41,894 nt of DNA, taken from positions 1 through 41,894 of the forward strand of contig JAGOAO010000016.1 of NCBI GenBank assembly GCA_017983845.1. The letters run 5' to 3'. Positions 14,716-29,830 of this stretch are shown piece after piece. The position numbers and the translations under genes are program-made. The DNA comes from Sediminibacterium sp. GTDB taxonomy: Bacteria; Bacteroidota; Bacteroidia; Chitinophagales; Chitinophagaceae. Under the pieces are notes generated by a model, which saw nothing but the letters and a program-made list of their open reading frames with translations, did no database searches and was not told the DNA's origin. How positions within the stretch are numbered: position 1 is the stretch's first letter; every line of letters starts with the position of its first letter.

Positions 14716-16134
14716 CTACATCGCAGTTACGGTAGCAATAATTAGATCTATTTTTACTAATAAAGCACTTTTTGAACTTCCTGCTTTCTGCTCTATGTAT
14801 CCTTTAGCAAAAACAAGGTCTTCAAGAGACCATTTTTTGTCATCACCAGTTACAATGGTGGATTGGTAATTTGCACTTTGTTTATCAAGTATAAATGTCA
14901 ACATGAAATCTAGGCATTTATCAAAATTGCCTGTGCTTGGTTCAATAAATCTTCCCGCTGTCTTTAAATCGTCATAGATGGCTTGTACATTACTTGGCCT
15001 ATTGATTAAAGACTTCAAGATAACGGCTTGGGTTAGGAATTGAAAGTTTTTACTTATCAGTGCTTCAGCGATATATTTACTTTCGAAATTTGCAGTCCTC
15101 CCATAGTTGCCAATCCAACCTAGATACAGCCATGTTGAACGAATATCATCTCTATCTTTTAATTGTTCTTGAATACTGCCGTTGTCTAAACTTCTGCGGG
15201 CAATATCACCTGCAAACCAAATAGGGTCTAATACCGACTCATATGTATTGTCTGAGTTAATCCCATCTACTATTATATTAAATGGACCGAACTGGCCATT
15301 TTTATACCTAATTATATGTTGTATATATGCGCCTGAAAGCCATTTCATTGTATTGTAAGATTCTTTAAAATCATTATAGCCATGCTCTCCAGGATGTTTT
15401 TCTCCAGCGGTCAAAGTATTAAATACCACTCTTTTAAATCTAACAAAGTTGGGGTCTGTTGGATTTTCCAAGTATTGATAGTATGTTGTTTTAACTGCTA
15501 AATTGTTGTTTTTTAAAAGCTGCAAAGATTTTTCTGGAAGTATATCATTCAATGTGGATGTGTCAACCCAACTCGGAAGCGTAATGGGCACTTTGATTTG
15601 TGTAAAATCCCATGCGGCAATTTGATTTAGCGTATAGCTGGAATTGGTTAGTCCAATTGAATTTGCAAATTGGGTTTCTGTGACAATTTCATTTCCAGGT
15701 TGATAAACAATCTTTGTTGTATTCCTTGGTGTGACACCATTTTTGGTTAAGCTTTTAATGTAGTTCATTACATTAATTGCATCTTCTGTAGAAACATGTT
15801 TCAGCGCTCTGTGAAAAACTCTATTCATGAAGGGTATTGAGTCAACATTATTAAATAATGCGATATCATAGCCATCTTTTGATACATGGCAATTCATGCA
15901 GGCATCATTTTTATCATCAAGAACACTTGTATAAACAATTAGACCTTTTGATATAGATTCGTTTAGTGAGATTGTACTTATGATTCTTGAATCTAATTTT
16001 TCTGTTACTACCACAACAGGATTAAATGGATTGGGTGTAGTACTAATGGGATTGGGCGTAGGGGTTGGAAGGTCAGTTTTTGAACAAGACAGAGTGAATG
16101 AAATGAGTAGTAGTAAAAATGCGGCTTGTTTCAT
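14716..16134 (-). CDS. Large lipoprotein with one haem c motif, family not recognised
   Basis: This 472-residue protein has a lipoprotein signal (hydrophobic segment, then FTLSC with Cys17 as probable lipid anchor). A Pro/Thr-rich linker of about 25 residues follows (TPTPNPISTTPNPFNP). A single haem-binding CMNCH comes next (Cys79, Cys82, His83), followed by helices ending VMNYIKSL, as in cytochrome c domains, so residues 50-120 are probably a small cytochrome domain. The remaining ~350 residues contain LPSWVDTSTLNDILPEKSL, an EKHPGEHGYNDFKESYN segment rich in His and acidic residues, and Trp-rich helical stretches. I do not recognise this part. It may be a periplasmic or surface-attached oxidoreductase partner (inference). 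The gene is divergent from the surface-protein array and convergent with the MFS gene. Confidence 0.65.
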   Translation of the reverse strand: MKQAAFLLLLISFTLSCSKTDLPTPTPNPISTTPNPFNPVVVVTEKLDSRIISTISLNESISKGLIVYTSVLDDKNDACMNCHVSKDGYDIALFNNVDSIPFMNRVFHRALKHVSTEDAINVMNYIKSLTKNGVTPRNTTKIVYQPGNEIVTETQFANSIGLTNSSYTLNQIAAWDFTQIKVPITLPSWVDTSTLNDILPEKSLQLLKNNNLAVKTTYYQYLENPTDPNFVRFKRVVFNTLTAGEKHPGEHGYNDFKESYNTMKWLSGAYIQHIIRYKNGQFGPFNIIVDGINSDNTYESVLDPIWFAGDIARRSLDNGSIQEQLKDRDDIRSTWLYLGWIGNYGRTANFESKYIAEALISKNFQFLTQAVILKSLINRPSNVQAIYDDLKTAGRFIEPSTGNFDKCLDFMLTFILDKQSANYQSTIVTGDDKKWSLEDLVFAKGYIEQKAGSSKSALLVKIDLIIATVTAM

Positions 16135-16265: not shown

Positions 16266-16856
16266 ATGAATAAAAGGGTATGTCTGTTGGTTGTTTTATT
16301 TATTTCTGTTAAGGCATTTACGCAAACAGGTATAGGTACAACTACGCCCAATGCCTCGGCTAAGTTAGATGTGGCAGCTACAGACAAAGGATTCCTTCCG
16401 CCAAGAGTGGCATTAACTGCAGCAAATGCTTTTGCGCCAATCACTGGAACTTCATCTGCAGCGGCTGGTTTATTGGTGTATAATACTGCAACTGCGGGTG
16501 CTATCCCCAATAATGTAGTACCTGGATATTATTATTGGAATGGAACATCATGGGTGCAAATTGCAAGTGGATTAATAATTGAGAATAAGACGGCAGGTTT
16601 TAATTTAGCCGCAACTGATAATAATAAATTATTTTTAATTAGCTCATCAACAGCTGTAACAGTAAATGTGCCCACTTTGCCTATTGGTTTTAGTTGTCAG
16701 TTTATTCAAACTGGTGCAGGTGCCATTACTTTGGCTGTATCTAGTACTACACTGTATTCTGCAAATGGATTAACTACTAGAGCCACCAATAGTGTTGTTG
16801 GATTGGTGATGAATAGTGCAACTACGGGATACGTTTTTGGAGACACGATAAATTAA
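16266..16856 (+). CDS. Secreted SAKLEV-type surface protein, small partner of cassette 1
   Basis: This 196-residue protein has a Sec signal peptide (MNKRVCLLVVLFISVKAFT) followed by the array's common mature N terminus, [17 protein letters not shown]...KGFLPPR. The middle reads GYYYWNGTSWVQI, a motif of tail-fibre-like Bacteroidota proteins. The C-terminal ~80 residues (NNKLFLISSS...TVNVPTLPIGFSCQFIQTGAGAITL) form a small beta-rich unit also found in the small partners of cassettes 2 and 3. I started at the ATG at 16266; an upstream TTG coincides with the promoter box. The stop and the next start share a base (TAATG), so translation with the large partner is probably coupled. Function is unknown; a structural or adhesive role at the cell surface is inference. 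Confidence 0.7.
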   Translation: MNKRVCLLVVLFISVKAFTQTGIGTTTPNASAKLDVAATDKGFLPPRVALTAANAFAPITGTSSAAAGLLVYNTATAGAIPNNVVPGYYYWNGTSWVQIASGLIIENKTAGFNLAATDNNKLFLISSSTAVTVNVPTLPIGFSCQFIQTGAGAITLAVSSTTLYSANGLTTRATNSVVGLVMNSATTGYVFGDTIN

Positions 16857-19087
16857 TGCGTAAATATTTTTACATATTTCTATTTTTAGTTACTTCATTG
16901 CAATTGAATGCGCAACTGGCTACTCGTAATATTGCTATTAAGAAACCAGTTGTTCCAAATTCATATGCTTACACTTATACTGGCGCAATTCAACAATTCA
17001 TTGTTCCAAACAGAGTTACCTCCATACAGGTAAATGCAAAAGGTGCAAAAGGAGGAACGGGTGCAAGAGGACAAGTTGGTGGTGCTGGGGCAAATATCAC
17101 TACTACCTTAAATGTAACTCCTGGACAGATTTTATATATTGTTGTAGGTGGATTCCCTGGGCAATCAGCTACGGCTAAATATGGTTTTGGAGGCAATGGT
17201 GGAAGCGGCACTAATTATGGTGGAGCGGGAGGTGGATTGTCAGGTGTATTTACTTCTATAAGTCCTGCCAATGCGAATGCTTTAGTAATTGCCGGAGGTG
17301 GTGGAGGTGGTGCAGGAATTTCAACTGGTAGTGATTATACTGGAGGCAATGCAGGTAATAATATAAATGGTACTTCAAGTAACGGGAATCAACCAGTTAA
17401 TTCTGCTTTCATAACGAATGGGAAATACCAAAATGGATATGCAGCATCAACAACTGCCGTAGGTATTGGTGGAGAGCCATTTGACGTAGTCACTGGTACA
17501 AGGCCTGCAAACGGTAACGACATTTCCGGTGGAAATGGTGGAACAAATGCTGGCGTTGGGACTTGGAATGGTGGAGGGGGTGCTGGTGCTGGATTTTTTG
17601 GTGGTGGAGGAGGTGCTGGTGGTGGTTCTGCCACAGGGGGTGGTGCAGGAGGATCTACAAAAACAATTACTGGGCATCATTCATTTGGTACAGCAAATAC
17701 AACAGGAGATGGAAGTGTCTCTATAACTTGTCTAACGAATTCAAGTTTAGTATTGCATTTAGATGCAGGAAATACGGCAAGTTATAGTGGGTCAGGAACT
17801 ACATGGAATGATTTATCAGGCAACAATTCAAATGTAACGTTGACTTCTACAACTTATGATGCAGCGAATGGCGGTTCCTTAGTTTTTAATGGAACTTCTA
17901 GTTATGCCAATTTTAATGCGAATATTGGGACCACAAATGCTGTAACTGTAGAGATGTGGGTAAAGACCAATTCGCTGAATGCCCCAAACGGAGCCATGTA
18001 TTTTGGGTTTGCATCTTATAATGCATGGACTTATAATGGTAATATTGGCTATAATACTGCTAGTGGCGATCAATTTGGTATCTCAAATACTAGAGTAAAT
18101 ACTTTAGAAATAGAAGGCGCTTGGAAGCATCTAGTTTTTGTAATGTATGCAGGCGATAAAACAAACAATAAAATTTATGTAAATGGTGTGAGTGAAAGTC
18201 TGACATTGTCATTGGGTACATTTAGTACTGTAAATGCAAATTTCAATTCTGGTCAAGGAAAAATTTCGGGTTGGCGCTATGTTAATCAACCATTGTCTTG
18301 GTTAATGAATATGAATGTAGCTAGTTTTAAGTTGTATAATCGTGAACTTACCTCACAAGAAATTACCAACAACTTCAATTCAACTAAGCAAAGGTTTTAT
18401 CCAGAAAATTCGGGTTTAAGCCCTGAAACTGCATCCACTAGTGCTTATCAAATCAAACAGGATTATCCTAATTCGCCAGACGGATTTTATTGGATAAAGC
18501 ATGTCAGTATCAATGGAGGTGTTCCTACAAAAATATATGCGGACATGACCACAGAAGGTGGAGGATGGACTCTGATTTTGAAAAATTCTTCTTATGTAGG
18601 CTGGAATTATGATAATTCAATGGCGCTAAATACATCGATACCTTTTAAAACGAATGCGGAGGTAATTAGTACTGCCACTTCAAATTATTCTATTATAGGC
18701 TGGGCGGATTATATAAAAAAATCTAGCAGTGGTTTTCAATATATGATTGATGCAGGAAGTAGGAGGAATTTTGGTGGTATTTGGACCGCAAATGCATCCT
18801 ATAGTTTTATAAGTACAAGTAATACGAATACCAATCTTACTGAAAATGTAAAGTTTGGTACTTGGAATTATGTTGGAAGCAATAATGGTATGGCACTTAG
18901 AATGCCATGGAGAAGTACTGTTGTTGGTGGAGGAACTGGTTTTTTAACCATTTCCGATGGTTCAGGAAATTGGTGGGGAACCTTAGTTTCAAATAATACA
19001 TTCTATTCGCCAGCGCCTTGGATATCTGATGCAGGAGGAGGGGCTGCCAATCAAAACCCTGGGATCATATGGTATTGGGTCAAGTAA
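16856..19087 (+). CDS. Secreted glycine-rich, LamG and fibrinogen-like protein, large partner of cassette 1
   Basis: This 743-residue protein has a signal peptide (MRKYFYIFLFLVTSLQLNAQ). Residues about 40-290 are a glycine-rich beta region with many GGxGG repeats (GGGGGGAG and similar) like the Gly-rich domains of adhesins. Residues about 296-520 are a LamG/concanavalin-like lectin domain (VLHLDAGNTASYSGSGTTW, ending with the usual LTSQEITNNFNSTKQRF). Residues about 522-743 look fibrinogen-like: the core DMTTEGGGWTLIL matches the family's Gly-Gly-Gly-Trp-Thr signature, and Trp is abundant toward the end. Such domains bind carbohydrates or acetylated sugars. No type IX secretion C-terminal sorting domain is seen, so the protein may be released or held by its partner. 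Overlaps the small partner's stop by one base. Confidence 0.72.
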   Translation: MRKYFYIFLFLVTSLQLNAQLATRNIAIKKPVVPNSYAYTYTGAIQQFIVPNRVTSIQVNAKGAKGGTGARGQVGGAGANITTTLNVTPGQILYIVVGGFPGQSATAKYGFGGNGGSGTNYGGAGGGLSGVFTSISPANANALVIAGGGGGGAGISTGSDYTGGNAGNNINGTSSNGNQPVNSAFITNGKYQNGYAASTTAVGIGGEPFDVVTGTRPANGNDISGGNGGTNAGVGTWNGGGGAGAGFFGGGGGAGGGSATGGGAGGSTKTITGHHSFGTANTTGDGSVSITCLTNSSLVLHLDAGNTASYSGSGTTWNDLSGNNSNVTLTSTTYDAANGGSLVFNGTSSYANFNANIGTTNAVTVEMWVKTNSLNAPNGAMYFGFASYNAWTYNGNIGYNTASGDQFGISNTRVNTLEIEGAWKHLVFVMYAGDKTNNKIYVNGVSESLTLSLGTFSTVNANFNSGQGKISGWRYVNQPLSWLMNMNVASFKLYNRELTSQEITNNFNSTKQRFYPENSGLSPETASTSAYQIKQDYPNSPDGFYWIKHVSINGGVPTKIYADMTTEGGGWTLILKNSSYVGWNYDNSMALNTSIPFKTNAEVISTATSNYSIIGWADYIKKSSSGFQYMIDAGSRRNFGGIWTANASYSFISTSNTNTNLTENVKFGTWNYVGSNNGMALRMPWRSTVVGGGTGFLTISDGSGNWWGTLVSNNTFYSPAPWISDAGGGAANQNPGIIWYWVK

Positions 19088-19097
19088 TAATTGACAT

Positions 19098-19128
19098 TTT
19101 GTAAATACTAGGGTATAAATTACATTTG
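19098..19128 (+). promoter_or_regulatory. Consensus Bacteroidota promoter for cassette 2
   Basis: TTTG at 19098-19101, exactly 19 bases, then TACATTTG at 19121-19128: a full match to the Bacteroidota sigma-ABfr type promoter. Transcription would begin near 19135, about 15 bases before the ATG, so cassette 2 can be expressed independently of cassette 1. Confidence 0.65.
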
Positions 19129-19149
19129 TCCTACAATTTTAAGTCTAGA

Positions 19150-19812
19150 ATGACCAAAGGAATCTTATTTATAGTAGGCATGATTTTAACTTTTCAAGTT
19201 TTAGCTCAAACTGGAATTGGCACTACTACGCCCAATACATCCGCTAAATTAGAAGTGGCAGCTACAGACAAGGGTTTCTTATTGCCAAGAATGACAGCTG
19301 CCCAAAGAGCAGCAATTGTTACACCTGCCAATGGATTGTTAGTGTATCAAACTGACGGTGTTGCAGGTTTTTATGTGAATACTGGAACATCAGCAGCTGC
19401 AGTTTGGACTAGAGTAAATATGGATTGGGTTAGAACAGGAAATGATATTGCGTATACTGCTGGAAATATATCAACCACTGGAACTTTGACTGGAGGGAAT
19501 ACAAGTACATCATCTATTTCAGGATTTGCAGCCAATGTGGGTACCATTTCGGCAAATTATCCGCTTACTGCAGCTGATAATGGCAAAATAATCCAATCGA
19601 CAGCTTCGTCTGCAATTACGATCACAATACCTTCTGGATTGCCTACAGGTTTCAATTGCACTGTGGTACAATGGGGTGCTGGTCAAATCACTTTTTCTGG
19701 ATCTTATGTCAATAGAGGGGGATTCACAAAAACAGCAAGTCAATATTCAGTTGCTAGTATCATCCACTTAGGTAGTAATAATATCATTGTTTCTGGAGAA
19801 ATGAGTAACTAA
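19150..19812 (+). CDS. Secreted SAKLEV-type surface protein, small partner of cassette 2
   Basis: This 220-residue protein has a signal peptide ([19 protein letters not shown]) followed by [17 protein letters not shown] and [16 protein letters not shown]. The central part has [16 protein letters not shown]; the C-terminal ~90 residues hold ADNGKIIQS...[17 protein letters not shown] and [12 protein letters not shown], a beta-rich unit also seen in phage fibre and neck proteins. It differs from the cassette 3 small partner at only a handful of residues after the signal peptide, although the two signal peptides are unlike. The ATG at 19150 was chosen over a TTG inside the promoter box. The large partner begins one base after the stop. 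Confidence 0.72.
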
Positions 19813-20007
19813 TATGAAGAGGCACTTACTATTTTTGATACTGTTAGTTCAATCTTTTTATTCTTGGTCTCAAATTGGACTTCCAATACAACAATCAGTT
19901 TTACCCAAAAATAGTTTGGTTGTAAACTATGATTTTTCAAAATCTTCTAGTTTCACCCGAGGGGCCACTACTGTTACAAACATTGCGGGAACAGCTTCTG
20001 GCAACGC
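19207..20007 (+). repeat. Direct repeat copy A (about 800 bp)
   Basis: This segment is nearly identical to 22442-23242 (offset 3235 bases). It spans the whole mature small protein and the first ~65 residues of the large partner. Similarity falls off sharply afterwards and just before (the signal peptides differ). Confidence 0.9.
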
Positions 20008-22324
20008 AACATTAGTCAGCAGTCCAATATTCATGAATTCATTGGGGTATGTTTCATTTAATGGATCTACTCAATATTTTGTTACACCTGATTTAAGATC
20101 TTATTTCAAGCCTGCAAATGCAAGTGTGCAAAAGAGTTTTACAATGAGTTTGTGGGTTTATCCTACTCAGTTAAATGGAGTTATAGTTAGTGAATTAAAT
20201 TCGCAAACTCCTAGTGGTGGTTGGCATGCTTCCAATATTGAAATAGCCAATGGTATTTTTAAATTTCGAGTATGGGCAAGTAGTGATGCTATCTCATCTT
20301 CGAGTGTACCTTTAAATCAGTGGTATCATTTGGCTTTAGTTTATGATGGTACGAAATCAAAAGCTTATCTAAATGGGATCTTATTAGGCACTCAAACTAT
20401 TGATCGGGAATTGCCAACTTCATACCAATATTATGCAATTGCTGCCACTGAAACAACGCAGATGGGATCGGGCGGAGGTTATGGTGAATTTAATCTTGCG
20501 CAATATAAATTATATCAATTGCCATTAAGCGATGCCGATATTTTACAAGAGTATGAATTAAGAAAAAATGAATTCGATTATACCATTCATAGTCCTTCAA
20601 CCAATACAAATCCAACCTATTGGAGTGTCTCTTCGAATTGGGCCGGTGAGACAACTTTTAGTCAGGATCATTATACTCCTTGGCTAAATAATACCAGATT
20701 AGGCTGGGCAGCACTTTATAATGATGTCAATCAATGGATTACCCTAAAATATGATGAGCCTGCTTATATTAAAGGTATCGTTACGCAGGGAAGAGCCAAT
20801 AGTGGTGGACAATGGGTTACAGCAGCGAACATAGAAACGAGTATGACAGGAGATGCTCCCTGGACAAGGGTATTGTCTAATAAATCTTTGAATGTGAATT
20901 CAACGGAGGATGTTTATTCCCCTTTTGCAACGCCCGTTTTTGCCAAAGCGGTTAGAGTCCTGCCAACCACATGGATGAATCATGTCACTATGCGAATGGG
21001 GATGCTGGTGAAGCCTAATAATATTGTAACAGACGGTTTAGTGCTTCGTTTAGATGCTGCAAATATTAAATCATATCAAGGTACTGGAACTTCTTTTAAA
21101 GACTTGACGACCAATTTGTCGGATTTTACTTTAGTTAATACTCCGACTTTCAATACGAATGGTTTTTTTACTTTTAATGGCACGAATCAATATGCATCAA
21201 GAGCGAATACTAATATTATAAAGCCTACAACGGCTATATCAATAGAGCAATGGTTAAGTGCAGATAATTGGAATGCAGGCACTTCTTCCTCAAACTACAA
21301 GTGTGCTTTATCATGTACGGATGGGGGAGGGTATTCTCATAATATTTGGAGTGGAAGTTTTTATAGTTATATATATGCAGGAGGTAGATATTTAATTCCC
21401 TCTGCATCTGTGACAAATTTAAATGGATGGCATCATTTTGTGACTACCTTTGATGGACAATTTGCTAAATTATATATAGATGGTAATTTGGAAAATACTG
21501 TAGATTATGGTAGTGCTAATAAAACCATGACATACGCATCGAATAGTATTTTTTTAGGAGCTGAAGCTGGGGCAAGTACCTCTCCTACAGGTTCTTATTG
21601 GCAAGGTAAAATCGCAAACACTTCTGTTTATAATAAAGCATTGACAAGTGCCGAGATTTTACAGAATTATAATAATACAAAAACGAGGTTTAGTCTTGTA
21701 CAGGATGGACTAGTAACTAATTTAATGAATCCTCCAAGTTCAGGATCTACCTGGACGGACGCATCGGGTTATGGTAACAATGCAACATTAAATGGTTCCC
21801 CAACTTATACTTCTGCAAATGGGGGAGGGTATACTACTTCGTCGTCGTCATATATTTCAGTACCATATAATCTGCCTAATAATTTTACCGTAAGTATTGC
21901 TTGTACCATGAACCCAACTTCCTTTTGGGCCACCCTTTGGGGGAACGAATCATGGAATGCAAGCAAGGGATTTATTGCTTATTTAGGTTCAAGTAGTACA
22001 ATTAATTTTGGTAGTCCAACAGGGCTTGCTAGTATTGCTGTATCTGGTATTAATACTGTTCATATTTGGGACTTTGTAGCTAATGGTACAAGTTATACTT
22101 TGTATAAGGATGGTGTAAATGTTAGCACAGGAACATTCACTGCGCCTTCTGGTGGGCTTAGTACTACTGGTCTTTATTTTGGTGCAAGACATGGTAATGC
22201 TGGAACAGGCTATACGGATACTTGTCCAGGCACCTACTATAGTATGCGTGTGTACAATAGGGGTTTAAGTGCAGATGAAATTCAAACTAATTTTTCGGTT
22301 TTGAGGTCGAATTATGGATTGTAG
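19814..22324 (+). CDS. Secreted multi-LamG/discoidin-like lectin, large partner of cassette 2
   Basis: This 836-residue protein has a signal peptide (MKRHLLFLILLVQSFYSWS). Residues about 30-250 are a LamG-like domain (SFTMSLWVYPTQ, QWYHLALVYDGTKSKAYLNG). Residues about 258-402 resemble an F5/8 type C (discoidin) domain (GWAALYNDVNQWITLKYDEP, KGIVTQGR, AKAVRVLPTTW). Residues about 406-628 are a second LamG domain and 629-836 a third. Each LamG unit closes with the usual L(T/S)...EIL/QxN(F/Y) helix. All these folds are sugar- or ligand-binding in secreted proteins. No membrane anchor or sorting domain is visible. The first ~65 residues are nearly identical to the cassette 3 partner, the rest diverged. 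Likely role: surface or matrix lectin (inference). Confidence 0.75.
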   Translation: MKRHLLFLILLVQSFYSWSQIGLPIQQSVLPKNSLVVNYDFSKSSSFTRGATTVTNIAGTASGNATLVSSPIFMNSLGYVSFNGSTQYFVTPDLRSYFKPANASVQKSFTMSLWVYPTQLNGVIVSELNSQTPSGGWHASNIEIANGIFKFRVWASSDAISSSSVPLNQWYHLALVYDGTKSKAYLNGILLGTQTIDRELPTSYQYYAIAATETTQMGSGGGYGEFNLAQYKLYQLPLSDADILQEYELRKNEFDYTIHSPSTNTNPTYWSVSSNWAGETTFSQDHYTPWLNNTRLGWAALYNDVNQWITLKYDEPAYIKGIVTQGRANSGGQWVTAANIETSMTGDAPWTRVLSNKSLNVNSTEDVYSPFATPVFAKAVRVLPTTWMNHVTMRMGMLVKPNNIVTDGLVLRLDAANIKSYQGTGTSFKDLTTNLSDFTLVNTPTFNTNGFFTFNGTNQYASRANTNIIKPTTAISIEQWLSADNWNAGTSSSNYKCALSCTDGGGYSHNIWSGSFYSYIYAGGRYLIPSASVTNLNGWHHFVTTFDGQFAKLYIDGNLENTVDYGSANKTMTYASNSIFLGAEAGASTSPTGSYWQGKIANTSVYNKALTSAEILQNYNNTKTRFSLVQDGLVTNLMNPPSSGSTWTDASGYGNNATLNGSPTYTSANGGGYTTSSSSYISVPYNLPNNFTVSIACTMNPTSFWATLWGNESWNASKGFIAYLGSSSTINFGSPTGLASIAVSGINTVHIWDFVANGTSYTLYKDGVNVSTGTFTAPSGGLSTTGLYFGARHGNAGTGYTDTCPGTYYSMRVYNRGLSADEIQTNFSVLRSNYGL

Positions 22325-22332
22325 ATTATCAT

Positions 22333-22363
22333 TTTGTAGACAGTTCCACTTCGTTTATTTTTG
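22333..22363 (+). promoter_or_regulatory. Consensus Bacteroidota promoter for cassette 3
   Basis: TTTG at 22333-22336, exactly 19 bases, then TATTTTTG at 22356-22363, the same geometry as the cassette 2 promoter. Predicted transcription start near 22370, about 15 bases before the ATG. Confidence 0.65.
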
Positions 22364-22384
22364 TAAAAATCCAATAGGCTAGAT

Positions 22385-23047
22385 ATGATTAGGCAAGGTA
22401 TATTTTTTATTTGCATTTTGGCAACTGTAAAGTTGCATGCACAAACTGGAATTGGCACCACTACGCCCAATGCATCTGCTAAATTAGAAGTGGTAGCTAC
22501 AGACAAGGGTTTCTTATTGCCAAGAATGACAGCTGCCCAAAGAGCAGCAATTGTTACACCTGCTAATGGATTGTTAGTGTTTCAAACAGACGGTGTTACC
22601 GGTTTTTATGTCAATACAGGAACTTCAGCAGCTGCAGTTTGGACTAGAGTAAATATGGATTGGACAAGAACAGGAAATGATATTGCGTATACTGCAGGGA
22701 ATATTTCAACTGCAGGTGCTTTGACTGGAGGCAATACTAGTACATCATCTATTTCAGGATTTGCTGCCAATGTGGGTACTATTTCGGCAAATTATCCGCT
22801 TACTGCGGCTGATAATGGCAAAATTCTGCAATCAACAGCATCATCTGCAATTACGATCACAATACCTTCTGGATTGCCTACAGGTTTCAATTGTACTGTG
22901 GTACAATGGGGTGCTGGTCAAATCACTTTTTCCGGATCTTATGTCAATAGAGGGGGATTCACAAAAACAGCAAGTCAATATTCAGTTGCTAGTATCATCC
23001 ACTTAGGCAGTAATAATATCATTGTTTCTGGAGAAATGAGTAACTAA
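22385..23047 (+). CDS. Secreted SAKLEV-type surface protein, small partner of cassette 3
   Basis: This 220-residue paralog of the cassette 2 small protein has a distinct signal peptide (MIRQGIFFICILATVKLHA), then [24 protein letters not shown]. About eight conservative or small changes separate the two mature proteins, for example V/A in the KLEV-ATDKG stretch, Y/F in LVYQ/LVFQ and I/L in GKIIQS/GKILQS. It ends with the same beta-rich unit and the tail VSGEMSN. One base separates its stop from the next ATG. Near-identity of the mature protein beside a diverged lectin partner suggests a conserved shared role, such as an anchor, stalk or chaperone (inference). Confidence 0.72.
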   Translation: MIRQGIFFICILATVKLHAQTGIGTTTPNASAKLEVVATDKGFLLPRMTAAQRAAIVTPANGLLVFQTDGVTGFYVNTGTSAAAVWTRVNMDWTRTGNDIAYTAGNISTAGALTGGNTSTSSISGFAANVGTISANYPLTAADNGKILQSTASSAITITIPSGLPTGFNCTVVQWGAGQITFSGSYVNRGGFTKTASQYSVASIIHLGSNNIIVSGEMSN

Positions 23048-23242
23048 TATGAAGAGGTACTTACTATTTTTGATACTGTTAGTTCAATCTTTTTATTCTT
23101 GGTCTCAAATTGGACTTCCAATACAACAATCGGTATTACCCAAAAATAGTTTGGTTGTAAACTATGATTTTTCAAAATCTTCTAGTTTCACCCGAGGGGC
23201 AACTACTGTTACAAATATTGCAGGAACAGCTTCTGGGAATGC
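22442..23242 (+). repeat. Direct repeat copy B (about 800 bp)
   Basis: Second copy of the segment at 19207-20007. The two lie in the same orientation, so recombination between them would delete or duplicate one 3.2 kb cassette unit and join one small gene to the other lectin gene in frame. Confidence 0.9.
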
Positions 23243-24986
23243 TAGTATCGTGAACGCGCCTATATTTTTCAACTCCTTGGGCATCGCTTCATTTAATGGG
23301 ACTAATCAATATGTGGTTACGCCGAATTTAAGAACTTACTTTAAATCTCTTGATGCAAGTGTTCAAAAAAGCTTTACCATGAGCTTTTGGGTTTATCCTA
23401 CTGCAGCATCTGGCAATTTAATTTATGAGCTAGATTCGCAAACACCTGATTTTGCTTGGAATGCCTCTAATATTGAACTTGTAAATGGATATGTGAAATA
23501 CCGCACATGGAATGGTTCGGCTATGGGGCCACAGGTTACTTCATCCAAAACAGTTAACATGAACCAATGGTATCATGTTGCCATGGTTTATGACGGTACA
23601 TCAGTTAAAGGCTATTTAAATGGTGTTTTGCAAGGCACGCAAACCTATGCAAGAGTAATTCCTGCTAATGGACAATTTTATGCAATAGGGGCAGGTGGAG
23701 ACCAAAATATGGGTACTAGTGCGTATGGTAATTTTAATTTAGCTCAATTTAAATTATACAATTTGCCAATGTCTGATAATGAGATATTGCAAGACTACGA
23801 ATTAAGGAAAAGTGAATTTGATTATACCATTCATAGTCCAACTACAAATGTTAATCCAACTTATTGGAATGTATCAAGCGCATGGAATCCTACAACAGGA
23901 GCAACCGGTGCATCGGGGACATTTGGCTCACGAGCTTATGTCCCATGGTTGAATTCGAGTCTGGGCTGGATTGCACAGCAACAAAATACAAGTCAATTTA
24001 TAAGTTTAAGTTATGACGAACCAGTTTATATCAAAGGGATTGTAACTCAAGGGAGAACGATTGATTATAGCCAATGGGTTACTGAAGCGCATGTGGAAAC
24101 AAGTATGACTGGCAGTGACCCTTGGACAAGGGTATTGACAAATCAAACCTTTAATTCCAATACTACTGACGATGTTCTTTCAATGTTTCCAACGCCTGTT
24201 TATGCTAAAGCAGTAAGGGTGCTTCCAACAAATTGGTATAGTTATATAACGATGCGTATGGGGATGTTGGTAAAGCCTAATAATCCAATAACTGATGGGT
24301 TGGTACTTCATTTAGATCCTTCAAATAGTAAATCTTATGGCGGCTCGGGAAGTACTTGGTCTGACTTGTCAACGAGTAATAATCATGCAAGCTTAACGGT
24401 TACTCCAACTTACAATGGGTCTAACGGCTTGGTGTTTAATGGTACAACACATTACGGAAGTATTCCTTCTGTTAGTGGCGTTACTGATTTTACAAATTCA
24501 CAGAAATACAGTATTGAAGTATGGTTTAACCCTTCAAGTGGTCAAGTTAATTCTGGGGAAGCTGAATTACTAGAAAAATGGAATAAAAACAACGAATCTA
24601 GATATCCTTTTACCATAAGATATAATGAGGGCACAAGCAGTATGAGTGTAGCTTGTTATGACGGAACTACATATAAATACGTTACTGTTCCTGGGTTTCC
24701 TGTAAATACTTGGAAGCAATTAGTAGGAGTATTTGATTTTGTCGGTAAGACACTTACAGTATATAGGGATGGAGTTTCTGTCGGAAGTGTAAGTTTAGTT
24801 GGTATCAATCAAGTAAGTAACACAAGTCCAATTGCAATTGCAACTAGACTTACTTCAACTGGCGGACCTCAAACTGGGATTATGTTTAAAGGAACGATTG
24901 GAAAAATTAGAATCTATAATAAATCCTTAACTGCTAGTGAAATACTTCAGAATTTTAACACGAATAAAGTTTTGTATGGGTTGTAG
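23049..24986 (+). CDS. Secreted LamG/discoidin-like lectin, large partner of cassette 3
   Basis: This 645-residue protein has a signal peptide nearly identical to its cassette 2 homologue. Residues about 30-250 are LamG (SFTMSFWVYPTAA, NQWYHVAMVYDG). Residues about 259-412 are discoidin-like (SSLGWIAQQQ, ISLSYDEPVYIKGIVTQGR). Residues about 415-645 are a second LamG (DGLVLHLDPSNSKSYGGSGSTW, TWKQLVGVFDF, closing SLTASEILQNFN). It has one LamG domain fewer than the 836-residue homologue. After the first ~65 residues it is clearly related in architecture, but the sequence is well diverged, especially in the final LamG. No sorting domain or anchor is seen. Confidence 0.75.
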   Translation: MKRYLLFLILLVQSFYSWSQIGLPIQQSVLPKNSLVVNYDFSKSSSFTRGATTVTNIAGTASGNASIVNAPIFFNSLGIASFNGTNQYVVTPNLRTYFKSLDASVQKSFTMSFWVYPTAASGNLIYELDSQTPDFAWNASNIELVNGYVKYRTWNGSAMGPQVTSSKTVNMNQWYHVAMVYDGTSVKGYLNGVLQGTQTYARVIPANGQFYAIGAGGDQNMGTSAYGNFNLAQFKLYNLPMSDNEILQDYELRKSEFDYTIHSPTTNVNPTYWNVSSAWNPTTGATGASGTFGSRAYVPWLNSSLGWIAQQQNTSQFISLSYDEPVYIKGIVTQGRTIDYSQWVTEAHVETSMTGSDPWTRVLTNQTFNSNTTDDVLSMFPTPVYAKAVRVLPTNWYSYITMRMGMLVKPNNPITDGLVLHLDPSNSKSYGGSGSTWSDLSTSNNHASLTVTPTYNGSNGLVFNGTTHYGSIPSVSGVTDFTNSQKYSIEVWFNPSSGQVNSGEAELLEKWNKNNESRYPFTIRYNEGTSSMSVACYDGTTYKYVTVPGFPVNTWKQLVGVFDFVGKTLTVYRDGVSVGSVSLVGINQVSNTSPIAIATRLTSTGGPQTGIMFKGTIGKIRIYNKSLTASEILQNFNTNKVLYGL

Positions 24987-25051
24987 ACAAACATCGACAT
25001 TTTTACTATTTATATTGGTATAAAATTTGAATTACTATAATTGATTAATTT

Positions 25052-26560
25052 ATGAGGCATTTTGCAATTTATTTAATTTGTTTAATCTCTAGAGGGGTAA
25101 CTGCGCAAACTGGCATAGGAACGACAGCACCACATGCATCTGCAAAGTTGGAAGTTAATTCTACTACAAAAGGCTTTTTGCCTCCAAGAATGACCAGTGC
25201 CCAAAGAGTTGCGATATCAAGCCCAGCCGCAGGATTAATGGTTTACCAATCAGATGGCACAGATGGATTATACTATTATACTGGCAGTGCTTGGGTGTAT
25301 ATTATCAATAGCTCAAACAATGTTTTGTCTGTATCCAATGGAGGTACGGGTAGCAATTCAGGATCAATTACTGGTTCAGGCGCATTGACTTTTGCTGCAG
25401 GAGGGTCTAATCAAAGTATAACGCTAACGCCTAGTGGATCTGGATATACGATATTGAATAACAATGTGGGTTTAGGAACCACAACTCCCACTGATAAACT
25501 AGTAGTTGGCAATTCCATAGCCTTACATGATGGTGGAGATAAAGTAATAGGTATTGGTTGGAGTCCTGGTTCTTCTAAAGCTATCGTTGCTGGAAACCCT
25601 GCTGAAATTCGTTTGAATCCAAGTTCTGGAAAATTAAGTTTTGGTACAGACCCCATATCTAGAACTGTAGGTTCTAATGTAGGTATTGAGAGAAGAATGA
25701 CTATTATGTCAGATGGTAAAATTGGTCTAGGTACAGAAAATCCTGGTGCTACTTTAGAAATAGGTTCCAGCAATGGCAGTGTTCCAGGCAATGTAATTTT
25801 GAATCCTACAACAGCTGGAACAGGAGTTGAAGGCGCTGAAATAATTTTCAAACCTGCTCCAATTACTACTTCACCAGCAGCTCAAACATGGGTTATAGAT
25901 CAGGTATCTAATTCAAATAATCCTCGACTTCGTTTTTTTCCATCAACTAGTGGAGAAAATCTTGGATTCACAATTAAAGACAATGGATATTTTGGCATTG
26001 GTACCAGTTCGCCCTTTTCTAAACTTCATGTTCAATCTTCTGATGGAGTTTCAATGTATATTGAAAGTACCGCTTCGGATAACAATGGTATGGTTATATT
26101 AAATGCGAATACTTCTCAGAATTGGGCTAATAATTGGCATGAGTTCATAATTTTTCAGAAGCAAGGTAATTCTCTTGGATTCATAGGTACCAATAATTCT
26201 GGCACAAACGTGCTGTATAGTTCAACCTCCGATTATCGCCTAAAAACTGATTTGAGAAATTATAGCGGATTGGATTTAGTTAATAGGATAAAGACATATG
26301 ATTACGCTTGGAAAAAAGACAATTCACGCATGTTTGGCGTCATGGCTCATGAATTGCAAGATGTACTTCCTTATGCTGTGTCTGGAATAAAAGATGCAAT
26401 TGATAAAGAAGGTAAAATCATTCCCCAAGCGGTTGATTATAGTAAATTAACCCCGATATTAGTCAAGGCAATACAAGAGCAAGACATCAAACTAAAAGAG
26501 CAGCAACAATTGATCAATGAACTTGTCAAGCGGTTAGAGGTAATAGAAAATAAGAAGTAA
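25052..26560 (+). CDS. Secreted tail-fibre-like protein with S74 intramolecular chaperone
   Basis: This 502-residue protein has a short signal peptide (MRHFAIYLICLISRGVTA), then QTGIGTTAPHASAKLEV and KGFLPPRMTSAQRVAI. The shaft contains repeats of the form G(I/L)GTxxPxxxLxV (GLGTTTPTDKLVV, GLGTENPGATLEI, GIGTSSPFSKLHV), as in phage fibre stalks. The C-terminal 110 residues are a peptidase S74/intramolecular chaperone domain starting SDYRLKTD. Ser393 and Lys398 match the Ser-Lys pair used for self-cleavage in endosialidase tailspikes, followed by MFGVMAHELQDVLP and a coiled coil. Such domains drive trimer folding and then cut themselves off. No consensus promoter was found just upstream; TAAAATTTG at 25021 has one base too many. 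Confidence 0.8.
   Translation: MRHFAIYLICLISRGVTAQTGIGTTAPHASAKLEVNSTTKGFLPPRMTSAQRVAISSPAAGLMVYQSDGTDGLYYYTGSAWVYIINSSNNVLSVSNGGTGSNSGSITGSGALTFAAGGSNQSITLTPSGSGYTILNNNVGLGTTTPTDKLVVGNSIALHDGGDKVIGIGWSPGSSKAIVAGNPAEIRLNPSSGKLSFGTDPISRTVGSNVGIERRMTIMSDGKIGLGTENPGATLEIGSSNGSVPGNVILNPTTAGTGVEGAEIIFKPAPITTSPAAQTWVIDQVSNSNNPRLRFFPSTSGENLGFTIKDNGYFGIGTSSPFSKLHVQSSDGVSMYIESTASDNNGMVILNANTSQNWANNWHEFIIFQKQGNSLGFIGTNNSGTNVLYSSTSDYRLKTDLRNYSGLDLVNRIKTYDYAWKKDNSRMFGVMAHELQDVLPYAVSGIKDAIDKEGKIIPQAVDYSKLTPILVKAIQEQDIKLKEQQQLINELVKRLEVIENKK
25145..25438 (+). repeat. Direct repeat, 294 bp, shared by the two S74 fibre genes (copy 1)
   Basis: Nearly identical to 28134-28427 (offset 2989). It encodes the KLEV...KGFLPPRMTSAQRVAI region through TLTPSG. 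Similarity stops abruptly afterwards, where the two shafts diverge. Confidence 0.9.
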
Positions 26561-26701
26561 TCAACTTTTTTTAAATTTAAAAAGGCAGTAACAAAGAGGT
26601 TAAAAGCTTTTACAAAAGAGCGAAATTAGACGCGAAAATCAAAAGAATTAGATTTTTTGTTTTGTAAGCCACTTAATTTTTTTTTAGTAATTCATTATAA
26701 T

Positions 26702-27994
26702 ATGAAAAGACAATGTTTATTGATTGCTGGTATGTTATTGTCTATCCAAGTAATTGCGCAAACCGGCATAGGAACGACAGCACCACATGCATCTGCAAAG
26801 TTGGAAGTGAGTGCAACTAATAAAGGTTTTTTACCTCCTCGAGTTACTTTGACAAGTATAACAGACATAAGTACGATTCTTTCGCCTGCAACTGGTTTGT
26901 TTGTATATAATACTGGAGATAACAATGGGTTGTCTGCCGGGTATTATTTTTGGAATGGATATTCATGGGCAACAATTGCGACGTCTGGAGGCGGAGGAAG
27001 TGTGGCTGCGGAATTTGGATCAGAAATTTTGAATGCTGCTGTTACAATCATTTCCGCTTCACCTATTGATGTGGTTTCATTTACTTTACCAAGTGCTGGC
27101 ACATGGGAAGTGATTACATTTTTAAGAGCGCAGGGTACTGCTGGATATGCAGCAGAATATGCAATTTATGATGCTTCAAATAATGTAGTGCCTAATTCCG
27201 AAATCTTACCTGCGTATGGAGAAGCTGCATCAACAGGAACTGGTGTTGTTAGAATTACTACAAATAGTGCTAAAGTATATAAACTTAGGGCATGGGCGAC
27301 AGGAGGACCTTCGTTACCTTATAATGTGACTTCGGATAACAATGGAAGAACAGGTGTAACATGGAAAAAGATAAGTGGCAATAGTCCAATGACTGTTATC
27401 AATTATGGAGATATCAAAACAGGGATTCAGTCTGCAGATCACAATGGCTGGGTTAAATTAGATGGACGTGCAAAATCTTCATTAACTGCTACACAACAAA
27501 TACAAGCAAATGCACTTGGTATGGGTAGTAGCCTTCCCGATGCAACGAATGCTGTTTTAATGCAATCCAGTGGAAGTTTGGGTGCAGTAACAGGAAGCAT
27601 GAGTCTGACAATTTCTCAAAGTCAATTGCCAAATATTACACCAACAATTACTGTTGACAATACAACGTCTACGATGCAAAGTTCTGGAGGTCACCAACAT
27701 CCAGTTGCAGTGGTTAATAGTACTGTTGGAGGATATGCTGCTTATAACCCTACTGCCTTTAAAACAGCTATGGCTCCCACTACAGAAGCAGACGCGGATA
27801 TAACGGATCGTTCTGGAACTGCAACGCTTATTAATACAGGAATTATCGGCTCTGCAGGCGACCATACTCATACAATGAACGCGCATAATCATACTGCAAC
27901 ATCATCTAGCATAAATGGTGGAGTGGCACAACAATCTATTGACATTACACCTCGTAGATTAATAGTGAATACTTTTATTTATTTGGGGTATTAA
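26702..27994 (+). CDS. Secreted tail-collar/needle-like fibre protein with HxH motifs
   Basis: This 430-residue protein starts at the ATG at 26702, which places the signal peptide (MKRQCLLIAGMLLSIQVIA) first. After QTGIGTTAPHASAKLEV and KGFLPPRVT comes SAGYYFWNGYSWATI, then a beta-sandwich-like region (about 105-235). From about 245 the sequence resembles phage tail collar proteins: NGWVKLDGRAKSS, SLPDATNAVLMQ, ISQSQLPNITP. Three His-x-His motifs follow (331/333, 388/390, 395/397). In T4 gp12 and gp37 such motifs bind metal along the three-fold axis of a trimeric tip. The end, ITPRRLIVNTFIYLGY, is the usual collar C terminus. The 43-base gap to the next gene suggests co-transcription. A host-encoded, Sec-exported fibre is the best reading. 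Confidence 0.75.
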   Translation: MKRQCLLIAGMLLSIQVIAQTGIGTTAPHASAKLEVSATNKGFLPPRVTLTSITDISTILSPATGLFVYNTGDNNGLSAGYYFWNGYSWATIATSGGGGSVAAEFGSEILNAAVTIISASPIDVVSFTLPSAGTWEVITFLRAQGTAGYAAEYAIYDASNNVVPNSEILPAYGEAASTGTGVVRITTNSAKVYKLRAWATGGPSLPYNVTSDNNGRTGVTWKKISGNSPMTVINYGDIKTGIQSADHNGWVKLDGRAKSSLTATQQIQANALGMGSSLPDATNAVLMQSSGSLGAVTGSMSLTISQSQLPNITPTITVDNTTSTMQSSGGHQHPVAVVNSTVGGYAAYNPTAFKTAMAPTTEADADITDRSGTATLINTGIIGSAGDHTHTMNAHNHTATSSSINGGVAQQSIDITPRRLIVNTFIYLGY

Positions 27995-28037
27995 TTTTCT
28001 TAAACTGATTCACACAATCTAGTACTAAAGACTATAT

Positions 28038-29516
28038 ATGAAAAGACATTTTTTTTTAATTATTGGGTGTATATTTTCAATGCAATTAATGGCTCAAACG
28101 GGTATTGGGACTACAACACCAGATCCTTCTGCGAAGTTGGAAGTTAATTCCATTACAAAAGGCTTCTTGCCACCAAGAATGACCAGTGCCCAAAGAGTTG
28201 CGATATCAAGCCCAGCAGCAGGATTAATGGTTTACCAATCAGATGGCACAGCAGGATTATACTATTATACCGGCAGTGCTTGGGTGTATATTATCAATAG
28301 CTCAAACAATGTTTTGTCTGTATCCAATGGAGGAACGGGTAGCAATTCAGGATCAATTACTGGTTCAGGCGCATTGACATTTGCTGCAGGAGGATCTAAT
28401 CAAAGCATAACCCTAACGCCTAGTGGAACGGGCAACACAATCATTAATAACAATGTGGGCATGGGCACTACAGCTCCCATAGATCGTTTAGATGTTAGAA
28501 GTGCAATGAGTGTAAATGAAATTAAATTTAGAGGCACAGACGGCGGAGACGATTCTGATCCATATCGTTTAAGAAAGTTTAAAATCGGAACTTTAAACGA
28601 ATTACAACTTCATTTGAATGATGATTATAACGAACGATTTGCGATTTATGGTAACTCTTGTTTATTAGATGGATGTGCCGAATATAGTTCTAGTTTATAT
28701 CATTATTTTCGTTCAGACGGCAATGTATATCATGCTGGCAATGTTGGGATAGGAACTACTTCACCTGCAGCGCCTTTACATGTGGCATCATATGCTACGC
28801 AATCTGTTGGTTCATATGGATACTTAAATACGGGAGGTGCAAATACATACACCATAAATGGGAATGTAAATTATTCGATTCAAGCAGAACAAAGAATAAG
28901 AGCTCCAGAGTTTAATGCTATTTCAGATGTTAGGATAAAAACTGATATTGTTCAATTAAATACAATCAAACAGTTAGCTGAATTAAATAAATTGAACGTA
29001 GTTAATTACGCCTATATTGATAAGTTATCAAATGGCAATAAAACTAAGACTGGGTTTATTGCTCAACAAGTGGAAGATGTAAATGCACAATTTGTGAATC
29101 AATCCACTGACTTTATTCCTTCTGTTTATGCACTTGCAAAATCGGCCACTCTAAATAATGGGATGCTACAAGTTTCAACAGAAAAATCGCATGGTCTAGT
29201 GAAGGGGGATATAGTGAAACTTTATGTTGAGGGTAGGAAAGAAGTGATAAAAACAATTGAAGCAGTATTAGGCCCAGATCATTTTTCAGTGATGGGTTGG
29301 GAAGATGCTACCAATAATTTATTTGTGTACGGGAAAAAAGTAACTGATTTTAGAGCGATAGATTTTGATCAGATTACCGCATTAAGTGTTGCTGCTATTC
29401 AAGAATTAAGCAAAAAGGTAGATCAACTGGAAGTGGAGAATACCAATTTAAAGAAATCAATCACCGAGGGAATTGAAGCTAGGTTGTTGAAGTTGGAAGC
29501 TAAATTAAATCAATAG
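28038..29516 (+). CDS. Secreted tail-fibre-like protein with S74-type chaperone and coiled coil
   Basis: This 492-residue protein has a signal peptide (MKRHFFLIIGCIFSMQLMA), then [17 protein letters not shown] and a 5' region nearly identical to the first S74 gene up to TLTPSG. Shaft repeats GMGTTAPIDRLDV and GIGTTSPAAPLHV follow. The chaperone domain begins SDVRIKTD with Ser296 and Lys301 in the catalytic spacing, then GFIAQQVEDV. At ~197 residues it is longer than the usual ~100-120, because a beta-rich insertion of about 75 residues (ATLNNGMLQVSTEKSHG through VTDFRAIDF) separates the core from the final coiled coil (AAIQELSKKVDQLEVENTNL). Last gene of the array; a terminator-like hairpin follows at 29649-29680. 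Confidence 0.8.
   Translation: MKRHFFLIIGCIFSMQLMAQTGIGTTTPDPSAKLEVNSITKGFLPPRMTSAQRVAISSPAAGLMVYQSDGTAGLYYYTGSAWVYIINSSNNVLSVSNGGTGSNSGSITGSGALTFAAGGSNQSITLTPSGTGNTIINNNVGMGTTAPIDRLDVRSAMSVNEIKFRGTDGGDDSDPYRLRKFKIGTLNELQLHLNDDYNERFAIYGNSCLLDGCAEYSSSLYHYFRSDGNVYHAGNVGIGTTSPAAPLHVASYATQSVGSYGYLNTGGANTYTINGNVNYSIQAEQRIRAPEFNAISDVRIKTDIVQLNTIKQLAELNKLNVVNYAYIDKLSNGNKTKTGFIAQQVEDVNAQFVNQSTDFIPSVYALAKSATLNNGMLQVSTEKSHGLVKGDIVKLYVEGRKEVIKTIEAVLGPDHFSVMGWEDATNNLFVYGKKVTDFRAIDFDQITALSVAAIQELSKKVDQLEVENTNLKKSITEGIEARLLKLEAKLNQ
28134..28427 (+). repeat. Direct repeat, 294 bp, shared by the two S74 fibre genes (copy 2)
   Basis: Second copy of 25145-25438 in the same orientation. The sharp edge of identity after TLTPSG resembles domain swapping between fibre genes. 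Confidence 0.9.
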
Positions 29517-29756: not shown

Positions 29757-29757
29757 G

Positions 29758-29830
29758 TGATCCCGCTGGGACTCGAACCCAGGGCCCATACATTAAAAGT
29801 GTATTGCTCTACCAACTGAGCTACGGAATC
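29758..29830 (-). tRNA. tRNA-Lys (anticodon UUU)
   Basis: This 73-base minus-strand tRNA has acceptor arms GATTCCG and CGGGATC plus discriminator A. The D arm is GCTCAGTTGGTAGAGC, the anticodon arm ATACA-CTTTTAA-TGTAT with TTT at the anticodon, and the T arm CTGGG-TTCGAGT-CCCAG. All four stems pair properly; the acceptor has one G-U pair. CCA is not encoded, as is usual in Bacteroidota. Confidence 0.95.

Follow-up and report, generated by a model that had tools for sequence, protein, structure and literature searches.

Paired fibre and lectin-type genes in Sediminibacterium suggest two-piece surface fibres built on a phage-type socket domain

The contig JAGOAO010000016.1 of a Sediminibacterium sp. 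(assembly GCA_017983845.1), the whole 41.9 kb of which is called the window below, carries nine complete open reading frames in tandem on the + strand (16266-29516; g1-g9, Table 1). Based on comparative genomics and structure prediction, we consider it moderately probable that three pairs of adjacent genes, g1-g2, g3-g4 and g5-g6, encode two-piece surface fibres in which a short peptide of the large protein (the "plug") physically docks in a C-terminal domain of the small one (the "socket"). In such a fibre, the small, Sec-exported protein would end in the phage-type socket, cleavage by signal peptidase would leave the plug at the N terminus of the partner protein from the adjacent gene, and this partner would dock in the socket by its plug. 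The fibre would then stand outside the cell, and its exchangeable parts may recognise glycans on other cells or particles. The products of g7, g8 and g9 would be one-piece fibres that have the same N-terminal module and built-in ends (S74, HxH and S74, respectively).

The array that an earlier note on this DNA had described was confirmed, with all nine reading frames present and complete and a Sec-type signal in each product, and it exceeds chance, as judged by the PHROGs tail or virion matches of 8/9 of its proteins and by a pair layout that recurs across genomes. The mature N terminus QTGIGTT.P..SAK is common to six of the proteins (g1, g3, g5, g7, g8 and g9), as the note had proposed, and its pairing of small and large genes holds at the junctions: g1 and g2 share 1 base, and 1 base separates g3 from g4 and g5 from g6. 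The large partners are lectin-type proteins, as claimed, with LamG and F5/8C domains in g4 and g6 and a fibrinogen-like GGGW domain (NCBIfam) in g2, which additionally has a Gly-rich part (by eye) and a PHROGs match over a LamG-like part. The proposed phage-fibre tips stood in part. The S74 domains of g7 and g9 were found by Pfam, whereas the HxH end of g8 was recognised by eye only; g8 had no Pfam or PHROGs match and only weak matches to solved structures (E 0.12 and above). The idea of interchangeable tips on a common module was supported with one change, in that the organiser appears to be the socket together with the N-terminal peptide of the next protein, and not the QTGIG module alone.

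The socket domain and the genes that follow it

The socket is a related C-terminal domain of ~95 residues in g1, g3 and g5, which the earlier note had not singled out. Its predicted fold in g5 is like that of the Pa223 capsid spike and of XD1 in T4 gp9/gp10, and the structure matches cover the XD1 part (TSP4 78-184, gp10 49-149, gp9 66-165); XD2 and XD3 are not among the socket matches listed, which leaves their presence possible. The socket is presumably trimeric. Matches to MinC, methyltransferases and others in Foldseek and VIA scored low and were set aside. In precomputed Pfam annotation the small proteins are tagged PF26696, which was not mentioned in the top-ranked matches of the open-access literature, and the relatives of g5 in the protein collection number 1,882.

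With a profile of the domain that we built, the socket was found at 51 places among 147 genomes of this genus, spread over 29 of them (the window's own included). Similarity to g5 led to five further genomes, which include Flavobacterium ammonificans GENT11 and Aquirufa antheringensis and added 13 places; a sixth one (L177; L numbers denote loci examined and G numbers genomes) was taken as G007 again and counted once. The neighbourhoods of all 64 places, from 34 Bacteroidota genomes, were read. Across the phylum, 7 of 392 sampled genomes had the socket, including that of the window; for the other six, only the presence of the domain was scored. In 64/64 proteins the domain ended no more than 2 residues from the C terminus, both in the 42 proteins shorter than 420 residues and in the 22 longer ones, which reach 3,572 residues.

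The gene after a socket gene follows at a median gap of 2 bases (n = 64), and in 59/64 places it encodes a protein with a Sec signal that is related to another partner. As a control, we used 31 fibre genes that have the same N-terminal modules without a socket; for 22 of them the next gene lies no more than 100 bases away, and it matched the partner set in 4/22 cases (Fisher p 1.2e-10 for 59/64 vs 4/22, without correction for relatedness). Sorted by domain, with one protein able to count under several, the 64 next genes comprise LamG (33), fibrinogen-like GGGW (20), PA14 (13), F5/8C (11), GLEYA (10) and Gly-rich (5) proteins. These domains are lectin-type and the binding of sugars by them is putative.

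The mature partners begin with the plug, a short class-specific peptide of the types QIGLPIQQSVLPKN, QVTLPNLQSLQY, QIVMPSFQPTNY, QFLTPYQGTQIQPK and QLLPNYYPVLESN, and those of class 8 begin with forms like QIVARNLALRKP (L055, L210 and L237 were missed by the signal-peptide rule and read by eye). In g6 the plug precedes the first LamG domain and is more conserved than the sequence after it, with 8/14 vs 105/377 invariant positions among 8 relatives (p 0.023). Residues 17-29 of g6 were predicted without structure from an alignment of 8 rows, with a predicted local distance difference test score (pLDDT) under 50. Alternatively, the socket might itself serve as a glycan-binding tip or trimerising cap, in the way of the StcE and CpaA domains with this fold, and the large partner would then be one more adhesin. 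We regard this as quite improbable, as it would leave unexplained the adjacent protein with its class-matched N terminus as well as the sockets on giant fibres, which are also trailed by partner genes.

Other arrangements of such genes were also seen. In L050 (307-2990), L234 (10886-13164) and L235 (7038-8911), a socket-less fibre, S74-like by eye, is followed by a protein of 305-447 amino acids with partial similarity to the socket partners, which makes a recurring pair. Five LamG-type proteins with signal peptides, four of which start with QRTMF...NNY, stand in tandem in L063 (3301-7416; G024:C97) on a contig with no socket gene, that is, as a row of tips without a fibre. Tandem proteins of ~500 residues (NNLVIGTP...RGVRSY), the C-terminal ends of which resemble a C-type-lectin fold by eye, follow a giant fibre and its LamG-type partner in L049 (4263-8848), L055, L057 and L059.

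Matching of sockets with plugs and exchange of cassettes

When the sockets were clustered beside the list of plugs, one plug kind was seen per socket subgroup (by eye). A Mantel test of socket against plug (n = 59) gave a rho of 0.35, and 0/2000 permutations were as high; L065, L220 and L230-L232 were left out of this and of the chimera tests. Natural chimeras are more telling than this correlation. In L058:2917 (G002) and L212:1519 (G152) a class 8 socket stands beside a class 8 N terminus, and the last 220 residues of the partners are 70-71% identical to g6, which is a class 3 partner. Conversely, L238:751, from a Flavobacterium metagenome-assembled genome, has a class 3 socket and a class 3 plug, the latter on a partner with 76% identity to the class 8 protein g2 in its last 220 residues. 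As judged from these identities, the plug is the part that stays with the socket in the three clear chimeras, and the distal lectin-type part is the one that is exchanged. In a weaker fourth case, L061:2872 (class 4), the end is 52-55% identical to class 8 partners, and the plug, QFFSSPYQGTNF, is a variant form where its class has the QIVMPSFQPTNY type.

The relatives also show how far the cassettes are shared. Against F. ammonificans and Aquirufa, the window's RimO shows 62-63% identity, whereas the identities to these two, respectively, are 76% and 65% for g2, 77% and 74% for g3, and 62% and 53% for g4. Moreover, g2 is nearer to F. ammonificans than to G157 and G166 of its own genus (69-71%), and in G007, of the same genus, RimO is 94% identical (measured as L177/G170) and g4 only 65%. 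From these contrasts we infer that cassettes have probably been exchanged between orders. The ordered arrangement that the earlier note had singled out did not hold, as the same cassette types are differently ordered in F. ammonificans and Aquirufa and the conserved unit is the pair. Scattered, unpaired genes in related genomes had been named there as an outcome that would contradict the proposed system; the cassettes are indeed scattered and reordered, yet the pairs are intact in 59/64 places. Within the window, a direct repeat of 1.9 kb (19204-21076 and 22439-24338, 78% identical) covers parts of g3-g4 and g5-g6, the small proteins g5 and g3 are 92% identical, and g7 and g9 are 90% identical over 388 bases. 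Both stretches of similarity, g3-g4/g5-g6 and g7/g9, would allow recombination, and the 1.9 kb repeat is a possible substrate for recombination between tips. A second site with varying fibre and lectin cassettes was observed in several genomes of the genus (L050, L054, L058, L062, L208 and L210), adjoining a TonB-type receptor, a protein of 177-198 amino acids or a MarC-like gene (names by eye).

Alternatively, co-expression might be all that links the small genes to the large ones; their products would be surface lectins or fibres that work separately, and the genes would be kept together as mobile operons. The close stop and start (TAATATG) and the promoter-like sites before g3 and g5 would suffice for this, the cassettes appear mobile, and co-inheritance of neighbours alone can yield the Mantel correlation. 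We nevertheless find this explanation unlikely. Socket-less fibre genes seldom have such a neighbour, the plug tracks the socket class in the three clear tip-swapped chimeras, and one phage protein (L123) combines collagen repeats, the socket and F5/8C domains in one chain, which is a natural fusion of the halves; one scan gave no further fusions of this kind beyond L123 itself.

Phage relatives and known two-piece tips

One scan of viral contigs found 198 relatives of the socket, of which 80 loci were kept and combined with 5 named phage records into a set of 85 loci. The socket matched 77 times in 76/85 loci and lay no more than 2 residues from the C terminus in 76/77 matches. Named phages with the socket amount to 177 records, and their hosts include Gordonia, Ruegeria, Arthrobacter and Variovorax, among others. 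The next phage genes start with MTFILPSFGASAISAVP or close variants in L068 and L071-L083, and other starts are MIIPSQHASRV, MRIPSFHASRV and MFSIPTMHGS. Among nine next genes scanned with Pfam, LamG was found in L077 and L088, F5/8C in L184, which has a hydrophobic stretch at its start, a beta-propeller in L137 and a weak CBM6/35 match in L187, where the socket reading frame was not resolved and the one after the similarity match was used. The phage partners of the first kinds begin directly at their peptide without a signal sequence (by eye), a position that signal-peptide cleavage would create in the bacterial partners. Additionally, a plug profile built from 23 bacterial sequences (without L065, the class 8 rows and the rows without a rule-called signal peptide) scored 26 non-redundant phage next genes above 190 controls (p 1.3e-5).

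The PHROGs matches and the frequency of the socket in viral contigs could suggest that the array is simply the fibre region of a prophage, a tailocin or a contractile injection system. However, such an element in place, including an extracellular contractile injection system, is disfavoured both by the flanks, where 26 scanned proteins (8 by Pfam and 20 by PHROGs, two in both) included no tail, head, connector or baseplate family (other contigs were not searched), and by the Sec-type signals on all nine proteins, in contrast to the LamG-type phage partners that begin at their peptide. We consider this origin most improbable, and the absence of sheath, tube and baseplate genes claimed in the earlier note agrees with the scan.

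Two-piece tips are known from phages. According to PMC6872550, the second receptor-binding protein of branched phage complexes is proposed to attach to a T4gp10-like domain by a conserved N-terminal peptide of 7 to 29 residues, with a variable distal part. The pairs described here resemble the complexes of G7C, K1-5 and KP32 in having a fibre protein with a domain of the gp9/gp10 kind and a second protein with a short conserved N-terminal peptide. They differ in the Sec signals on both proteins, in their place on a bacterial chromosome, in the C-terminal position of a domain whose listed matches cover XD1 rather than the docking XD2/XD3, and in their lectin-type partners, which are depolymerases in the phages. 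According to PMC12892980, gp38 of T2-type phages interacts with gp37 through its N terminus, which has to match gp37. There too, in T2/S16-type fibres, a separate tip protein sits on a trimeric fibre end and its N terminus decides compatibility; gp38, however, belongs to a phage fibre and is built as a polyglycine-II sandwich with recognition loops, whereas the partners here match LamG, F5/8C or GGGW and are encoded by the cell. The Pseudomonas phage Pa223 capsid spike (9ny6) differs in being part of the virion capsid. The pairs would work like the branched receptor-binding and gp37-gp38 systems without being members of them, because they are not part of a virion (they lie on a bacterial contig, and virion families were absent from the 26 flanking proteins) and both halves have export signals. 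Fibrillar adhesins and surface adhesins of the type IX secretion system (T9SS) have the stalk and the tip in one chain. The likeness to these adhesins, of which SprB is an example, seems to lie in the logic of a stalk and an adhesive domain at the cell surface, and the difference in the use of two genes, with no T9SS sorting domain matched in g1-g6. Among top-ranked titles and the beginnings of abstracts in the open-access literature, we found no host-encoded two-piece fibre tips.

Several observations weigh against two-piece fibres. The listed matches of the socket cover XD1 and not XD2/XD3, which are the parts that dock partners, and XD1 of TSP4 and gp10 is described as apparently a spacer in PMC8825819. 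Some sockets are without such a partner: the next gene encodes a lipoprotein 97 bases away in L065 and a different kind of protein with a signal peptide in L220, and L230, L231 and L232 (G097, G125) lie in phage-like sequence, with next genes that have no signal peptide. The partner-like neighbours of the four socket-less control genes point the same way, as does the class 8 N terminus (RKP), which differs from the P-containing plugs. The matching of sockets with plugs could reflect the co-inheritance of neighbours, and the low pLDDT of the plug stems from an alignment of 8 sequences. On the phage side, just 6/26 next genes exceeded the 95th percentile of the controls, 4/9 of those scanned (L086, L095, L142 and L183) had no Pfam match, and many are not lectin-like (a large podophage group with MAVNLSPIGG..., L100, L130 and others).

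With two-piece fibres as the preferred reading, a phage-type two-piece fibre tip would here be exported by the cell. As a tentative history, for which we see somewhat less than an even case, Bacteroidota may have taken over the two-piece tip of phages, added Sec signals to both halves, with cleavage exposing the plug, and exchanged lectin tips across genera and orders, on short connectors as well as on giant fibres. As a separate observation, the socket is also present on the phage-like contigs of L230-L232, which occur within genomes of the genus and are a possible source of the domain. If two-piece fibres are confirmed, they would constitute a cell-surface recognition system whose separately exported parts are joined by a plug and socket of the phage type. 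Its code, made up of the socket class and the plug, would be readable in the sequence and predict which lectin goes with which fibre in a genome. They would also give a role to many unnamed proteins, the relatives of g5 alone being numerous, show how receptor-binding parts of phages turn into cellular adhesins, and offer plug-socket pairs for protein display.

Export, expression and genomic setting

The signal peptides of the nine proteins, called by sequence patterns, are 18-19 residues long and are followed by Gln, and the pattern used found no lipobox in any of them. Gln after the cleavage site fits the Gln rule for signal peptidase I substrates of Bacteroidota, as given in PMC5837995. The surface location of the fibres is presumed. 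The claimed lack of a type IX sorting domain was upheld, as TIGR04183 matched none of the nine array proteins; the T9SS sorting domain was likewise matched in 0/64 next genes. The genome (2.03 Mb, 55 contigs, 97.6% complete) encodes the T9SS translocon SprA and has six TIGR04183 matches outside the array. In two of these cases the match is a small protein encoded immediately before a giant fibre; the giant fibre of C6 ends in a socket, and that of C27 is without one and is followed by a small socket protein. Signal-peptide proteins of ~165-190 residues lie directly upstream of giant fibres in L048 (16796-17338) and L051 (7809-8354), both above the cut-off of the T9SS sorting domain, and in L055 (3370-3867), L057 (955-1452) and L059 (10677-11168); they may form a T9SS-exported base for these fibres.

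The pattern TTTG-N-TAnnTTTG, which we take to be the Bacteroidota promoter consensus, was found upstream of g3 and g5 and not upstream of g1, g7, g8 or g9. Its count in the window as a whole did not exceed the chance expectation (3 vs 3.7), and what stands out is its position alone: it preceded 6/38 small socket genes, including g3 and g5, vs 0.8% of 1,920 random stretches. Given these sites, some pairs may have transcripts of their own. In scans of sigma-70 promoters (47 promoter-like vs 51.9 expected) and terminators (6 terminator-like vs 8.9 expected), the counts did not exceed those of shuffles. The coordinates in Table 1 include two corrected starts, as g3 is better read from 19150 and g8 from 26702.

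Table 1. Features of the array and its borders
Feature	Position	Strand	Description
g1	16266..16856	+	Small fibre protein; Sec signal; QTGIG N terminus; C-terminal class 8 socket
g2	16856..19087	+	Partner of g1; Sec signal; class 8 N terminus QLATRNIAIKKP
Promoter-like site	19098..19128	+	TTTG-N-TAnnTTTG upstream of g3; assumed consensus
g3	19150..19812	+	Small fibre protein; Sec signal; class 3 socket
g4	19814..22324	+	Partner of g3; Sec signal; plug QIGLPIQQSVLPKN; three LamG stretches and one F5/8C (Pfam)
Promoter-like site	22333..22363	+	TTTG-N-TAnnTTTG upstream of g5; assumed consensus
g5	22385..23047	+	Small fibre protein; Sec signal; class 3 socket
Socket of g5	22766..23044	+	About 95 residues
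g6	23049..24986	+	Partner of g5; Sec signal; plug QIGLPIQQSVLPKN; two LamG stretches and one F5/8C (Pfam)
Plug of g6	23106..23147	+	Mature residues 1-14; conserved; low-confidence in model
g7	25052..26560	+	Fibre; Sec signal; S74 domain (Pfam); no socket
g8	26702..27994	+	Fibre; Sec signal; HxH collar-type end (by eye); no socket
g9	28038..29516	+	Fibre; Sec signal; S74 domain (Pfam); no socket
tRNA-Lys(TTT)	29757..29830	-	Adjoins the array

The neighbours of the array are housekeeping genes and the tRNA-Lys, and the flanks include, by Pfam, molybdopterin, CorA, MFS, SDR, LpdA-type and RF3 genes. PADLOC gave no defence match in the 4/9 array proteins tested. In the three relatives examined (G014, G005 and G171), fibre or LamG-type genes lie no more than ~3 kb from the same tRNA-Lys and SDR gene. 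On the other side, divergent from the array, a lipoprotein-like protein with a CxNCH haem-type motif is encoded at 14716-16134 on the - strand.
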